The notes beneath the pieces were generated by a model. The model saw only the letters and a list, made by a program, of their open reading frames with translations, was not told where the DNA came from and made no database searches. The position numbers were made by a program, and so were the translations under genes. A DNA stretch of 64,000 bases from Acidobacteria bacterium Ga0077553 (GTDB lineage Bacteria; Acidobacteriota; Terriglobia; Bryobacterales; Bryobacteraceae). Shown piece after piece: positions 17,975-22,027 of this stretch. The first letter of the stretch is position 1; each line of letters begins with the position of its first letter. The stretch lies in the NCBI GenBank assembly GCA_001464575.1, contig LNFE01000076.1, forward strand, positions 1 to 64,000, read 5' to 3'.

Positions 17975-18589
17975 TTACTGCTCCACGCGGAAGACGTAGT
18001 CCGCCAACTCCTCGCCGCGCGCATCAGAGACCGTAGCCACATAGTCTCCCGGTGGCAGCAGCGGCACACGGGCCACCCCGCCCCGCAGCTCCCCCGCCGC
18101 TACCTGACCACCGTCCACTGCGCGAAGCTGCCAGCGAACCGCTTCCCGGTTGCCGAAGTCCACCGCCAACCCAGTCACCCCCGGCGCGATCCGAACCACT
18201 TGAGCCGCCTCGGACCCGCGCAACGTACCCGCCGTCAACGCCACGGCCATCACGTTTTCCCGCGCTGGCTGGAACCAGAACCACCCAGCGACTAGCAACG
18301 CAGCCACCGCCGCCGCCCAGCGCCACCACTCGACGCCGCGGCGCAACCGCTTCCGCAGCGCCCGCGCGAAGGGCTCCCGTCGCACCAGGTCTCGCCGCGC
18401 CGCTCGGTAGCTTTCCCAAGCCTTGCGCTCCTCCGCCGTCAGCCGCCCGGCCACGTACTGATCAAGCAGCTCCTCCTCTTCGGCTTCCACCAACTCCAGA
18501 AACTCCGCCTCCGCAAACAGGCGCGCCTCAACGGCCTCCCGCTCCCGCTCGTCTAACTGTCCGAGTAAGTACCGTCGAATTTCGCTCAC
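17975..18589 (-). CDS. Putative membrane-anchored anti-sigma factor (partner of the ECF gene)
   Basis: A 204-residue protein. The cytoplasmic N-terminal part (1-86) is highly charged and helical (YLLGQLDERERE...LDQYVAGRLTAEERKAW), like anti-sigma domains but without the HxxxCxxC zinc motif. One membrane helix spans about 88-106 (WWRWAAAVAALLVAGWFWF). The remaining 98 residues form a beta-rich periplasmic domain ('LLPPGDYVATVSD'). The GTG at 18589 follows the sigma gene stop directly, as expected for a co-translated sigma/anti-sigma pair. The upstream TPR-CHAT protease makes regulated cleavage an attractive hypothesis. Confidence 0.7.
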   Translation of the reverse strand: MSEIRRYLLGQLDEREREAVEARLFAEAEFLELVEAEEEELLDQYVAGRLTAEERKAWESYRAARRDLVRREPFARALRKRLRRGVEWWRWAAAVAALLVAGWFWFQPARENVMAVALTAGTLRGSEAAQVVRIAPGVTGLAVDFGNREAVRWQLRAVDGGQVAAGELRGGVARVPLLPPGDYVATVSDARGEELADYVFRVEQ

Positions 18590-18590
18590 T

Positions 18591-19190
18591 CTATTCCATG
18601 GCCCCCGCGTCCGTTTCGTTACCAGCCAGGCACGCCCGCACACACGCTTCCAACTTGCCCCGTACCCGATGCATCCGCACCCGCAAGGCGTTGGCATCAA
18701 TTCCCAACTCGGCGGCCAACGCAGCCCGCGCCCGAATCTTCTCGCCCCCTTCGCCGGTATAGAACCGCTCCACCCAGCTCCGGCTCGCCGGCGCCAGACG
18801 GTCTAAACAACGCTCCAGGCAATCGAGCGCCGCCTGCGGCTCCGCCCTCTCCGGGGCCGCCAGCCGACGCCCATCCAGCTCCACTACCTTCGGCTTTTTC
18901 CACCCCTCCCGCACGACGTTCCGCGCAATGCCCAGCACAAAGCTCTCGACGGTCGTTACCGCCACGCCCTCCGCCAGCCGCCGGGCCGCGCGGTCCAGTG
19001 TCTCATCGGCGGCCTCCTCGGCTCCCGGGTGCCGCTGCGCGCCGAAGTAGACCAGCAAGCGCCGCCGTAACTGCTCGTAGCGCTCTCCGGCGTTCTCTCC
19101 CAACACGGCCAAAAAGCCGGCAAAACTCTCCGGGGTCAGAGGAACTCCCCCTGCACCACGAACCCCGCCCAATAGAACGGATGCGCCCAC
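18591..19190 (-). CDS. ECF-type RNA polymerase sigma factor
   Basis: About 180-200 residues. Region 2 is 'RRRLLVYFGAQRHPGAEEAADETLDRAARRL' (split in reading: DETLDRAARR is the typical core) followed by 'ESFVLGIARNVVREGWKK'. Region 4 is 'DRLAPASRSWVERFY' and 'LAAELGIDANALRVRMHRVRGKLEACV', the helix-turn-helix for the -35 element. The start is uncertain because no ATG is in place: GTG at 19190, TTG at 19172 or CTG at 19139 could serve. The last would give a CTGA overlap with the CHAT stop. The gene lies directly between the CHAT protease and the anti-sigma gene. Confidence 0.8.
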   Translation of the reverse strand: MGASVLLGGVRGAGGVPLTPESFAGFLAVLGENAGERYEQLRRRLLVYFGAQRHPGAEEAADETLDRAARRLAEGVAVTTVESFVLGIARNVVREGWKKPKVVELDGRRLAAPERAEPQAALDCLERCLDRLAPASRSWVERFYTGEGGEKIRARAALAAELGIDANALRVRMHRVRGKLEACVRACLAGNETDAGAME

Positions 19191-21157
19191 CGGCGGCTCG
19201 CCGCCAGCCGCCGCTGCGCCTCCCGCAACGCCTCGGCCGCGGGCCGCTTGGCTACAAACATTTCTGTGTAGAAATGTTTCATCAGCTCCGCCGTGGCCCG
19301 GTCGTCCACCTTCCATAAACTCGCGACCACTCGCTTGACGCCAGCCTGTTGAAAGGCCCGCGTCAGGCTCATCAGCCCCTCGCGTTTCATCTCCCTGCCC
19401 AGCGCGGTCTGGCAGGCGCTCAGCACCGCCAACTCCGCCCCCAGCTTCATGCCATAGACATCGCGCAGCCGCAGGCTGCCGCCGCTCAACACAATCTCGG
19501 TCCGTTCCGGCCGATCGGTATCGAGCACGGAGTGCGCGGCGAAGTGCATCACGGCGGCCGGATTTTGCCGCACGGCATCGGGCGTGGCAGCCGCCCCCAT
19601 GGCGGCCAACCGCTCCCCCGCCGGCACCAGCGCCAGCACCTGCTCGGCCTCCATCCGCGCAAACGCCAGCCGCGCCAACTGCGGCGCCGCCGGGTCCGCA
19701 AATACAGCCAATCGCTTACCCACGAATCCCGGCGCCCCCCGTTGCGCCGCCACCGCCGATGCCGATGGCGCCAGCGTCACGGCCGCGCCCGTCAGGTCCG
19801 CAAACGGAAGGTACTGCAACGCGCCGTCGGCCACCACCAGCAATCTCTTCGCAGAGACACCCGGCAGCAACGCCTTAGCCAACGCCGCGGCATCCGGCCG
19901 CGCCGAGCCGGCCGTGCGATACCCGGCGTAGGCCTGCCGCGCCATCGCCTCGAGCGTGCCCCGCCCCGGCAATAGCCGATGTTGCACGGCCCCCTTGGTC
20001 ACGATAAACAGATGGCTCCGCTCCTGCCCCAGGGAATACTCCACTAGGGTCGTTTCCGCGTCCAGCACGTCACGCTGCACCTGCTCCGCGGTCAACGTCG
20101 CCCGCTCTGGCCCGCCCTTCACCCCGGCTTCCGATAGCGCCTCCACAATCGCCCGTGCTCGCGCCCGTTCGCTGATGGCAAAGGCACGCCGCGGGTCGCC
20201 CTTATCCAGTTCCAGGTACACCTCAATCAGAAACTCATACCGGTTCTGCACATACCCGATATAAGTCGCCCGCAGGTCCTGATCCGATAACTTCTGCCGC
20301 AAGCCCTCGGCCAGCGTCACCGCCGCCAACATCTCCCGGGCCGCCGCCTCCAGGTTCCCCGCCCGCCGTTCCAACATCGCCAGCGTCTGCCGCGCAAACG
20401 CCTCGCCGCCCCGATACTTCGCCTCGCTGAACAGCGCAATCGACCGCTGTAACTCCTCCCGCGCCGGGGCCACCGCGCCCTGCCCGAGTAACTTCGTCCC
20501 TAACTTCACCCGCGTCGACGCCTCCCCGCGGATGTCCTTCATCTCCTGCCGGATCGCCAACGCCGCGGCCAGATCCTCCTGCCCCATCTGCGGGTCCAGC
20601 ATGGCGCGGGAGCTCAGCGCGTCGGCCTCGGTCCTCCGATCCCCGGCGGCGCGGGCCAGTTGCAGCGCTTCGTCCAGCAGCAGCCGCGCCTTGGCCGTCT
20701 CCCGTTGGTAGCGCCGCATCTCGCCGAGGCCGAATACGGTCAACGCCAGCGCCCCGGGCTTCGCCGTCCCCCGCTGCATCGCCAGCGCCCGTTCGAGATA
20801 GGCAAACGCCTTGGCGTTCTCGTTCAGGTTGAAATACAGCACCCCGACATCGCGGATCGTCTTGGCTTCGAGGTCGCGCAGCTGCGCCTTCCGCAGTACC
20901 GCCAATGCCTGTTCGTAGAACGCCAGCGCCTTCTGCCGTTCGCCAATGCCTTCGTGAATGTAGGCCAGCAGCCGCAGATTCAGCGCCTGTTCGGCCGGTT
21001 TGCCCAGTTGCCGGTGCATGGCCAACGACTGCCGCACCGCGGCAATGCCGTCCTCCGCCTGGCCCTTTTCATAGAGTTGCAACGCTTCGTTGTGCAACAT
21101 CTCGGCGCGTTCGGCATCTTGCCACCAGAACAGCGCGAGAAAGATCCAGACGGCCAT
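19136..21157 (-). CDS. TPR-CHAT protease-like protein with N-terminal signal sequence
   Basis: A 673-residue protein. A short hydrophobic start (MAVWIFLALFWWQ) suggests export or membrane anchoring. Residues about 20-330 are TPR repeats ('GERQKALAFYEQALAVLRK' and similar). The CHAT (caspase-like) domain occupies about 350-673 with both catalytic residues in place: His in 'MHFAAHSVLD' (near H542) and Cys in 'LSACQTALG' (near C582), followed by 'VVASLWKVDD'. CHAT domains are cysteine peptidases of the separase/caspase clan. The stop overlaps the ECF sigma reading frame, and a membrane anti-sigma gene follows. Protease and target may therefore be encoded side by side; the cleavage target is not shown by the sequence. 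Confidence 0.87.
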   Translation of the reverse strand: MAVWIFLALFWWQDAERAEMLHNEALQLYEKGQAEDGIAAVRQSLAMHRQLGKPAEQALNLRLLAYIHEGIGERQKALAFYEQALAVLRKAQLRDLEAKTIRDVGVLYFNLNENAKAFAYLERALAMQRGTAKPGALALTVFGLGEMRRYQRETAKARLLLDEALQLARAAGDRRTEADALSSRAMLDPQMGQEDLAAALAIRQEMKDIRGEASTRVKLGTKLLGQGAVAPAREELQRSIALFSEAKYRGGEAFARQTLAMLERRAGNLEAAAREMLAAVTLAEGLRQKLSDQDLRATYIGYVQNRYEFLIEVYLELDKGDPRRAFAISERARARAIVEALSEAGVKGGPERATLTAEQVQRDVLDAETTLVEYSLGQERSHLFIVTKGAVQHRLLPGRGTLEAMARQAYAGYRTAGSARPDAAALAKALLPGVSAKRLLVVADGALQYLPFADLTGAAVTLAPSASAVAAQRGAPGFVGKRLAVFADPAAPQLARLAFARMEAEQVLALVPAGERLAAMGAAATPDAVRQNPAAVMHFAAHSVLDTDRPERTEIVLSGGSLRLRDVYGMKLGAELAVLSACQTALGREMKREGLMSLTRAFQQAGVKRVVASLWKVDDRATAELMKHFYTEMFVAKRPAAEALREAQRRLAASRRWAHPFYWAGFVVQGEFL

Positions 21158-21175
21158 CCGTGCATCGTAGCGCCC

Positions 21176-21973
21176 CTACTGCCGCAGAAACAACATCCCG
21201 TTCAGTTTCAGCCCGTCCCGTGTGTGCGGCTCCATGGCGAAAATCTGCCGCCCCACCCCGTCGATGTCGGCCACCAGCGAGTTGCCAAAGATCCGGTAGG
21301 TGCCGGTGGCCGTATTGCTGGCCCCCACGCTGCCGCCGCCGTACACCTGCGAGCTGGTGTCAAAGTAGTTCTGCTGCGTCGACTGAAAGCGGTTCCCTGG
21401 CAGGAACACCACCGTCCAGTTGCTCGAGTAACTCGAAGAGTCCCGCACGCCGGTGCGCGTGCTCTTATAGTTACTCAACTCCCACCGGCCCAGCACCTGC
21501 TGCTCGGCGGCCGTGTTCCGCGGCGGAGCCTGAAAGCGCGCGCTCTGCAGCATCGCCCGGCCCCGGCCCTGCAGTTCGGCCAGCCGCTCCGGCCGTCCCA
21601 CCGCCATCACGGCGAAGTAGACCTCTCCTTGCAACTGCATGCCGTTCCAGGCCACAAACATGCCGTTGGCGTATTCCTGCTCGGCGTTCGCGCCGGAAAA
21701 CGTAGGCCCGGCCGTCACCCGCAAACCCGGCAGGATGGTATTGGAAATCCCCACCGCCTGCTGCGCCAGCTCCTGAATTGACCGCGCGGCCGATATCCCC
21801 GAACCCACCAGAATCCGCTCCGCCGCGCCGTCCACCGGCTCCACCACCGTCATCAGCGGCGAGTATCGCGCCCGCCAGCCCTCCGGCACCGGAAACCGGT
21901 ACGACCCATCCGGCGCGGCAAACTCGCCGGCCAACAGCGGCAGCGTTGATAACAGCATGGCAATCATCCTCAT
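21176..21973 (-). CDS. Secreted protein of unknown function, first gene of the CHAT/sigma operon
   Basis: A 265-residue protein with a signal peptide (MRMIAMLLSTLPLLAG). The first half resembles small PsbP/DUF1795-type domains (PEGWRARYSPLMTVVEP, ending before 'AMLQSARF'). The second half is a beta-barrel-like domain starting 'LGRWELSNYKS' with 'WTVVFLPGNRFQST' and 'GTYRIFGNSLVADI', a lipocalin-like pattern. The start at 21973 excludes an upstream frame crossing the palindrome. Only 18 bases separate its stop from the CHAT start, so the four genes probably form one transcript. The function is not recognised. Confidence 0.6.
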   Translation of the reverse strand: MRMIAMLLSTLPLLAGEFAAPDGSYRFPVPEGWRARYSPLMTVVEPVDGAAERILVGSGISAARSIQELAQQAVGISNTILPGLRVTAGPTFSGANAEQEYANGMFVAWNGMQLQGEVYFAVMAVGRPERLAELQGRGRAMLQSARFQAPPRNTAAEQQVLGRWELSNYKSTRTGVRDSSSYSSNWTVVFLPGNRFQSTQQNYFDTSSQVYGGGSVGASNTATGTYRIFGNSLVADIDGVGRQIFAMEPHTRDGLKLNGMLFLRQ

Positions 21974-21993: not shown

Positions 21994-22027
21994 CGAAAAA
22001 CATTACCATTACCAGTAATGTTTTTCG
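21994..22027. promoter_or_regulatory. Perfect 13-bp inverted repeat between divergent genes
   Basis: CGAAAAACATTAC at 21994-22006 is repeated in inverse at 22015-22027 with an 8-base loop; the centre also repeats CATTAC. It lies in the 75-base gap between the start codons of the CHAT/sigma operon (21973) and the SBBP gene (22049), so an operator acting on both is the simplest reading. A terminator would make little sense between two starts. Confidence 0.5.

Follow-up and report, generated by a model that had tools for sequence, protein, structure and literature searches.

What part does a tetratricopeptide repeat (TPR)-CHAT protease play when its gene directly adjoins those of an extracytoplasmic function (ECF) sigma factor and a membrane anti-sigma factor? 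The question is raised by a gene cluster in contig LNFE01000076.1 of Acidobacteria bacterium Ga0077553 (Acidobacteriota; Bryobacteraceae; assembly GCA_001464575.1), of which positions 1 to 64,000, here called the window, were analyzed. A preliminary description of the window reported four minus-strand genes with almost no gaps between them, encoding a secreted protein, a TPR-CHAT protease, an ECF sigma factor, and a single-span anti-sigma factor, and this layout was confirmed, with 18 nt, a 4-nt overlap, and 1 nt, respectively, at the successive junctions. The best explanation, and one that we believe on balance, is that the last three genes form a signal-transduction unit in which the CHAT protease cuts the anti-sigma factor and so frees the sigma factor. 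This explanation draws on gene linkage, a conserved catalytic dyad, natural fusions, a conserved arginine, and M50 proteases, which are seen in the sequence, and on a predicted topology. The features of the cluster are as follows.

17975..18589, minus strand: single-span anti-sigma factor, 204 aa, GTG start (NF052375, E 1.7e-6, below cut-off; AlphaFold model)
18269..18325, minus strand: predicted transmembrane segment of the anti-sigma factor, residues 89-107 (hydropathy; long helix 66-105 in the model)
17981..18253, minus strand: outer beta-rich domain of the anti-sigma factor, residues 113-203 (model; weak PDB matches only)
18218..18220, minus strand: Arg124 of the anti-sigma outer loop, candidate P1 residue (LTAGTLR↓GSEA; Arg in 51/52 outer domains)
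about 18591..19139, minus strand: ECF-type sigma factor, 182 aa (TIGR02989, E 8.5e-11; PF08281, E 0.0095; relatives in the same place in other loci)
19136..21157, minus strand: TPR-CHAT cysteine protease, 673 aa, weak hydrophobic N-terminus (PF12770, E 6.4e-55; TPR_12, E 5.4e-14)
19532..19534, minus strand: catalytic His542 of CHAT (invariant column; codon checked)
19412..19414, minus strand: catalytic Cys582 of CHAT (invariant column; codon checked)
19301..19303, minus strand: Asp619 of the CHAT W-x-V-x-D motif, possible S1 pocket (Asp in 119/127 rows)
21176..21973, minus strand: secreted protein, 265 aa, leading gene (sole BLAST match in the compared loci: L053)

Products of the Gene Cluster

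The CHAT domain is certain (187 bits against a Pfam cut-off of 24 for PF12770), and the protein carries TPRs. The catalytic residues, which had been placed near H542 and C582, are exactly His542 and Cys582 according to the alignment. Among 128 aligned rows of linked and unlinked CHATs (sets A to C, defined below), neither catalytic column varies (His and Cys, respectively, at 127 of 127 letters), two of the rows being the pieces of the broken gene of locus L057, each of which is without one dyad column. The Asp of the W-x-V-x-D motif is conserved in all but eight of 127 rows. Clan CD proteases often accept Arg at P1, and separase uses the Asp of a similar motif for its P1 Arg; by analogy, Asp619 is a possible S1 pocket for a P1 Arg. 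The N-terminus of the window CHAT, described earlier as signal-like, is indeed hydrophobic (MAVWIFLALFWWQDA), but its export signal must be called weak because it has neither a positive charge nor a clear cleavage site. The protein passes the signal-peptide score narrowly, its near-copy in L053 scores 2.07, and most linked CHAT relatives have clearer export signals. PADLOC returned a generic TPR match only for the window CHAT and a weak match named BovA for the CHAT of L050, and the CHAT part of the structure model is of low confidence.

The matches of the sigma factor (Pfam Sigma70_r4_2 and NCBIfam TIGR02989) are both under the family cut-offs, as is that of the anti-sigma factor to NCBIfam 'antisigma' (28 bits against a cut-off of 100); though below these cut-offs, they fit by place and kind. 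The sigma factor probably starts at a CTG codon (19137-19139), which overlaps the CHAT stop codon. An anti-sigma factor spanning the membrane once, with an outer domain of about 98 residues, had been proposed, and our prediction agrees with it, giving one hydrophobic segment near residues 89-107 and an outer part of about 97 residues. The AlphaFold model (mean predicted local distance difference test score [pLDDT] 79, predicted template modeling score [pTM] 0.43) consists of a helical sigma-binding domain, a transmembrane helix, and an outer beta-rich domain. This outer domain is probably a beta-sandwich in the model, with weak PDB matches only (best 2p9r, E 1.8e-3).

Conservation of the Gene Neighborhood

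In the source genome, six of the seven CHAT genes (the window and L048-L052, but not L047) have a same-strand ECF sigma gene within 2.5 kb, against a chance expectation of about 0.035 per CHAT gene (assuming about 90 sigma genes, from 82 sigma matches in the genome), and the binomial probability of this outcome is near 1e-8. The neighborhood counts cover Acidobacteriota and were made in three sets of regions. Set A (L047-L086 and L009) comprises 40 regions, six around the other CHATs of the source genome and the others around the genes that best matched the window CHAT, so that it was mostly chosen by similarity; 29 of its 43 CHAT open reading frames are linked to a same-strand sigma gene. Sets B (L127-L166, from the family) and C (L087-L126, from other families of the phylum) comprise 40 regions each, which were hand-picked, not random, and spread over genomes; the underlying lists were ordered by CHAT-model rank, and the picks ran through most of the list for B and through its upper part for C. 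The linked CHATs numbered 25 of 41 in set B and 14 of 44 in set C. Same-strand sigma genes were concentrated beside the CHAT genes, with 25 within 2.5 kb and none across the outer 247 kb in set B, and 14 within 2.5 kb and two across 251 kb in set C. Linkage of CHAT to sigma genes is thus strong within the family and partial in the phylum as a whole. The genome search thus found the linkage of CHAT, sigma, and anti-sigma genes beyond chance, and the preliminary description has not failed on the point it considered decisive against it, namely gene order not being conserved in relatives. Outside Acidobacteriota, CHATs were present in 17 of 61 Chloroflexota genomes. Two further groups of loci were collected, L187-L205, hand-picked and several of them for unusual CHAT lengths, and L214-L227, which are further CHATs of the phylum and enter no count.

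Three gene orders were seen (CHAT-sigma-anti, sigma-anti-CHAT, and sigma-CHAT-anti). In a quick tree built from 79 CHAT domains, with many unresolved forks, the change between CHAT-first and sigma-first orders requires at least four steps, and a single CHAT-first clade was rejected (approximately unbiased test, p 0.004). Because the link outlives rearrangement, joint function is favored over the shared descent of one operon.

Some loci depart from the common pattern. In L056 and L057, from two genomes of the family, the CHAT and sigma frames are broken and the adjoining anti-sigma frame is intact. In L047 (7040-13778), L088, and L095, a sigma-like gene upstream of CHAT is followed by an apparent serine/threonine kinase gene instead of an anti-sigma gene (by eye in L088 and L095).

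Natural Fusions of CHAT and Anti-Sigma Factor

Six open reading frames (L191, L209, L210, L211, L212, and L228) unite an anti-sigma part, a transmembrane segment, TPRs, and CHAT, and each of them has a sigma frame that overlaps it or lies upstream at a distance of up to about 33 nt. L209-L213 were collected as relatives of L191; L213 is cut by the contig end and was not counted. The N-terminus of L228 resembles residues 2-107 of the window anti-sigma factor, that is, its sigma-binding and transmembrane regions (33% identity, E 3e-11), and L228 is the one fusion of the six with the anti-sigma type of the window. The Zn-type fusion is rare, since the search for relatives of L191 gave a match in 4 of the 297 genomes of the phylum, and the fusions fall into a single group on the quick tree, L228 and L212 on long branches; they therefore represent few events. 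The natural fusions support a tie between CHAT and the anti-sigma factor, and they make it hard to hold that CHAT is a mere output of the sigma factor.

In L162 (6587-10317), the layout of a Zn-type fusion is found in two overlapping open reading frames, one with a Zn-finger anti-sigma part, a transmembrane segment, and TPRs and the other with CHAT; this split may be real or a sequence error.

Topology of the Proteases and Their Anti-Sigma Factors

Among 71 curated loci, exported CHATs were accompanied by a membrane anti-sigma factor in 52 of 52 cases and unexported CHATs by a soluble one in 18 of 19. The single discordant locus among the 71, L050, is discordant by automatic score, the hydrophobic window falling in an apparent Zn-finger helix. 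The table held 86 linked rows, from which 15 were left out because of the state of the genes (L009, L062, L075, and L083, truncated; L057, broken, twice; L162, split), the anti-sigma factor (none found in L070, L164, and L167; uncertain in L052), or the neighbors (a kinase in L088 and L095, by eye; a distant sigma gene in L174 and L176). Signal-peptide calls were set by hand for six loci (L146, L149, L150, and L156 as exported; L133 and L186 as not), and the anti-sigma factors of L050, L133, and L137 were chosen by hand. Of 90 sigma proteins scored as a control, one reached a signal-peptide score of 2.0. The predicted topology is consistent with a protease that works in the periplasm on an anti-sigma factor anchored in the membrane.

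The loci of unexported CHATs encode a soluble Zn-type protein, a candidate anti-sigma factor, between or after the sigma and CHAT genes. Open reading frames with an S8 (subtilase-like) pattern occur in 6 of the 19 unexported-CHAT loci (L102, L175, L177, L180, L182, and L186) and in 1 of the 66 other linked loci.

A Conserved Arginine of the Outer Loop

One column of the outer domain is Arg in 51 of 52 split membrane anti-sigma factors, the next-best column of the domain reaching 45. These rows are the 57 membrane anti-sigma factors minus five with an outer part longer than 190 aa, and they include near-copies (the window and L053; L051, L058, and L060; L048 and L143) as well as four rows with a truncated CHAT. 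This Arg is found 15-87 residues beyond the scored transmembrane window and is followed by Gly (32), Ser (10), Asp (6), or Ala, Asn, or Gln (one each); in the exception, L112, R-S is found three residues further on. In the window it is R124, which lies in loop 123-127, the sole stretch of at least three residues with pLDDT below 50 in the model. By eye, three of the long outer parts have a similar motif at a like place (L087, R-G; L114, R-S; L124, R-D), while L123 and L149 are of another kind. The soluble anti-sigma factors have an Arg between the helical part and the beta-domain in 19 of 19 cases, followed by Ser (14), Gly (2), Ala (2), or Asp (1). When the set was shuffled and realigned 12 times, with fewer refinement rounds than for the real set, the most Arg-rich column held Arg in 12-35 of 52 rows. 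We propose that CHAT cuts the anti-sigma factor at this Arg.

A profile of the outer domain matched none of 20 ECF loci on CHAT-free contigs of the same genome at E up to 0.1, and it matched three of four held-out anti-sigma factors near an opposite-strand CHAT (L063, L067, and L068, but not L071). This control is indicative only because the profile was trained on linked domains and 20 of about 82 sigma loci were read, some of which may have no true membrane anti-sigma factor.

Proposed Mechanism and Alternatives

The anti-sigma factor would hold the ECF sigma factor at the inner face of the membrane and display its beta-rich domain outside. Some signal, acting through the TPR part, would switch on the exported TPR-CHAT protease, which would cut the anti-sigma factor after the almost invariant Arg, R124 in the window, of its outer loop. 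Further processing of the stump by an M50 site-2 protease and by cytosolic proteases would release the sigma factor, which would go on to transcribe its targets. For the window cluster, we infer the export of CHAT, its contact with the anti-sigma factor, the cleavage and its site, the signal, and the targets. The source genome has four matches to PF02163 (M50 site-2 proteases) on three contigs; their presence is weak support because PF02163 matched all 14 control genomes.

Several observations weigh against this mechanism. No same-strand sigma gene lies within 2.5 kb of 16 of the 41 family CHATs and 30 of the 44 phylum CHATs, of which two and seven, respectively, have an opposite-strand one. 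The signal sequence of the window CHAT is weak. Without the six hand-made signal-peptide calls, the topology agreement drops to 64 of 71 (seven discordant), and this agreement is one joint evolutionary switch, since the unexported CHATs form one supported group on the quick tree and 15 of their 19 rows come from set D (L167-L186), a collection of 20 loci related to the unexported CHAT of L050; the alternative of many independent events was rejected on the same ground. As for the Arg, Pro columns reached 51-52 of 52 in the shuffled sets, showing that the aligner can gather a common residue freely. In the fusions, the Arg that follows the transmembrane segment stands in another context, [ED]-x-R-[IL] (7 of 7 cases, including the split L162), and the held-out L067 has Lys in place of Arg. 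In type III-E systems, no residue of Csx30 was found to be essential for cutting, and loop length matters (PMC10028731). The invariant Arg could instead be a structural or docking residue.

If the Arg is for docking, TPR-CHAT may be a sensor that binds the outer domain of the anti-sigma factor without cutting it, as DdvA (see below) might, site-1 cleavage being left to another protease. TPR arrays bind proteins, and DdvA has its CHAT in the same polypeptide. However, the complete conservation of the His and Cys columns is unlike a pseudo-protease, and we consider a non-cutting sensor unlikely.

Autoregulated operons are usual for ECF sigma factors, and CHAT leads the CHAT-first operons, as a gene of the regulon would; the sigma and anti-sigma factors might thus autoregulate the operon, with CHAT as an output only, an effector protease acting on other periplasmic proteins. 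This role is distinctly unlikely in our judgment: the fusions, though few, make CHAT part of the anti-sigma factor itself, the linkage survives several gene orders, and in the small control the matches to the outer-domain profile were confined to the neighborhood of CHAT. The sigma factor itself might instead be what CHAT degrades or cuts, a role proposed for ECF54 without an anti-sigma factor (PMC8999054) and in keeping with the adjoining positions of CHAT and these sigma genes; this is very improbable because an exported CHAT cannot reach a cytosolic sigma factor and the unexported set has its own candidate soluble anti-sigma factors.

Cleavage of the anti-sigma factor by CHAT, if true, explains the role of many bacterial TPR-CHAT proteases encoded beside ECF sigma factors, and gives them a substrate with a single candidate cleavage residue.

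Neighboring Features

The secreted 265-aa protein, which had been counted with the other three genes, did not prove to be a conserved part of the module: its single BLAST match across 41 compared loci is in the near-copy L053, and we therefore place it outside. An inverted repeat with 13-nt arms (21994-22027; CGAAAAACATTAC, 8-nt loop, GTAATGTTTTTCG) sits between the divergent CHAT cluster and a plus-strand DUF7948/SBBP gene; its arms are near-identical in L053, where the loop differs, and its DNA fold has a z of about -7. No shared promoter was evident by eye upstream of the window cluster and the CHAT genes of nine relatives, no motif test having been run, and an Rfam scan of window positions 8000-32000 gave zero matches.

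Comparison with Known Systems

The closest precedent is DdvA (PDB 8rot, 8rw5), a transmembrane anti-sigma factor whose 991-aa chain is named CHAT domain-containing protein, and which, judging by its name, we take to be the anti-sigma factor of the ECF sigma factor DdvS of Myxococcus xanthus. DdvS becomes active once DdvA is inactivated (PMC4374960). A fold comparison of the window CHAT model ranked DdvA first (E 1.7e-10, TM-score 0.35, the CHAT part of the model being poor), and so did a search of PDB chains with a CHAT-only profile (E 7e-14); the dyad columns of DdvA hold His and Cys, as in the window CHAT. The CHAT-only profile was used because the whole profile (A3) gave mostly TPR matches. 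DdvA is one polypeptide, as are the six fusions described above, whereas in the window the protease and the anti-sigma factor are two genes, and the window anti-sigma factor, unlike DdvA, has its own outer domain with the almost invariant Arg.

CHAT genes are also found near ECF54, together with those of a subtilase and a carboxypeptidase, and a review proposes that proteolysis acts there without an anti-sigma factor (PMC8999054). The unexported set (L050, L102, L133, L137, and the relatives of L050 among L167-L186) is like ECF54 in having a sigma factor and CHAT, with the S8-like pattern in some of its loci, and differs from that proposal in its soluble Zn-type candidate anti-sigma factors, of which that of L182 has a weak CarboxypepD_reg match (E 3.4e-4, below cut-off). 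The unexported set may be the ECF54 group, and, if our reading of the module is true, ECF54-like systems, described as having no anti-sigma factor, may have one.

The Csx29 system shares with the window a TPR-CHAT protease, a sigma inhibitor, and an ECF sigma factor. Csx29 is cytosolic and is triggered by RNA through Cas7-11. After DdvA, Csx29 chains and separase were the next matches to the window CHAT or the CHAT profile, the PDB chains of Csx29/TPR-CHAT matching the profile at E 1.6e-11 to 5.9e-6. In type III-E, Csx29 cuts Csx30, proposed to free CASP-sigma, and the cut lies in a flexible loop (PMC10028731). The window CHAT was rejected as a member of Csx29 (NF041237, 15.4 bits against a cut-off of 300), and no direct-repeat family of at least 22 nt with spacing up to 120 was found in window positions 8000-32000, about 10 kb on either side, where Cas7-11 was not searched for. 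A single-sequence search of the window anti-sigma factor against PDB chains gave no Csx30 match at E up to 1, the folds not being compared directly.

The proposed cascade resembles that of RseA, DegS, and RseP (Escherichia coli sigma-E), in which a membrane anti-sigma factor with a periplasmic part undergoes site-1 and then M50 site-2 cleavage; DegS is a PDZ serine protease. Unlike DegS, the proposed site-1 protease is a caspase-fold cysteine protease encoded together with its substrate, which in the window is, by prediction only, a single-span anti-sigma factor with an extracytoplasmic domain like RseA. An RseA-type system is also named in PMC10028731.

The preliminary description regarded the cluster as an independent wiring of the parts known from CRISPR systems, and this overlooked two precedents, the transmembrane anti-sigma factor DdvA, which contains CHAT, and CHAT beside ECF54 (PMC8999054). 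Because DdvA already joins the same parts, the arrangement is not a new kind of system. No description of a split TPR-CHAT/anti-sigma pair outside CRISPR was found in the literature, where coverage was thin for subscription papers and preprints. The joining of the parts is already known, and the split CHAT/anti-sigma arrangement is a new and widespread variant of it. If our reading of the module is correct, it gives a chromosomal setting, outside CRISPR, in which the Csx29 system may have originated. We tentatively go further, to a proposal that we rate as somewhat short of an even chance: Acidobacteriota would possess a large family of site-1 proteases with a caspase fold. Each member would have its own anti-sigma factor, fused to it or encoded with it, and would cut this factor after an almost invariant Arg in the linker that joins the sigma-binding part to the outer or second domain. 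The arrangement would occur in a periplasmic, a cytosolic, and a fused version, and Csx29/Csx30 would be one branch of it, recruited to an RNA trigger.

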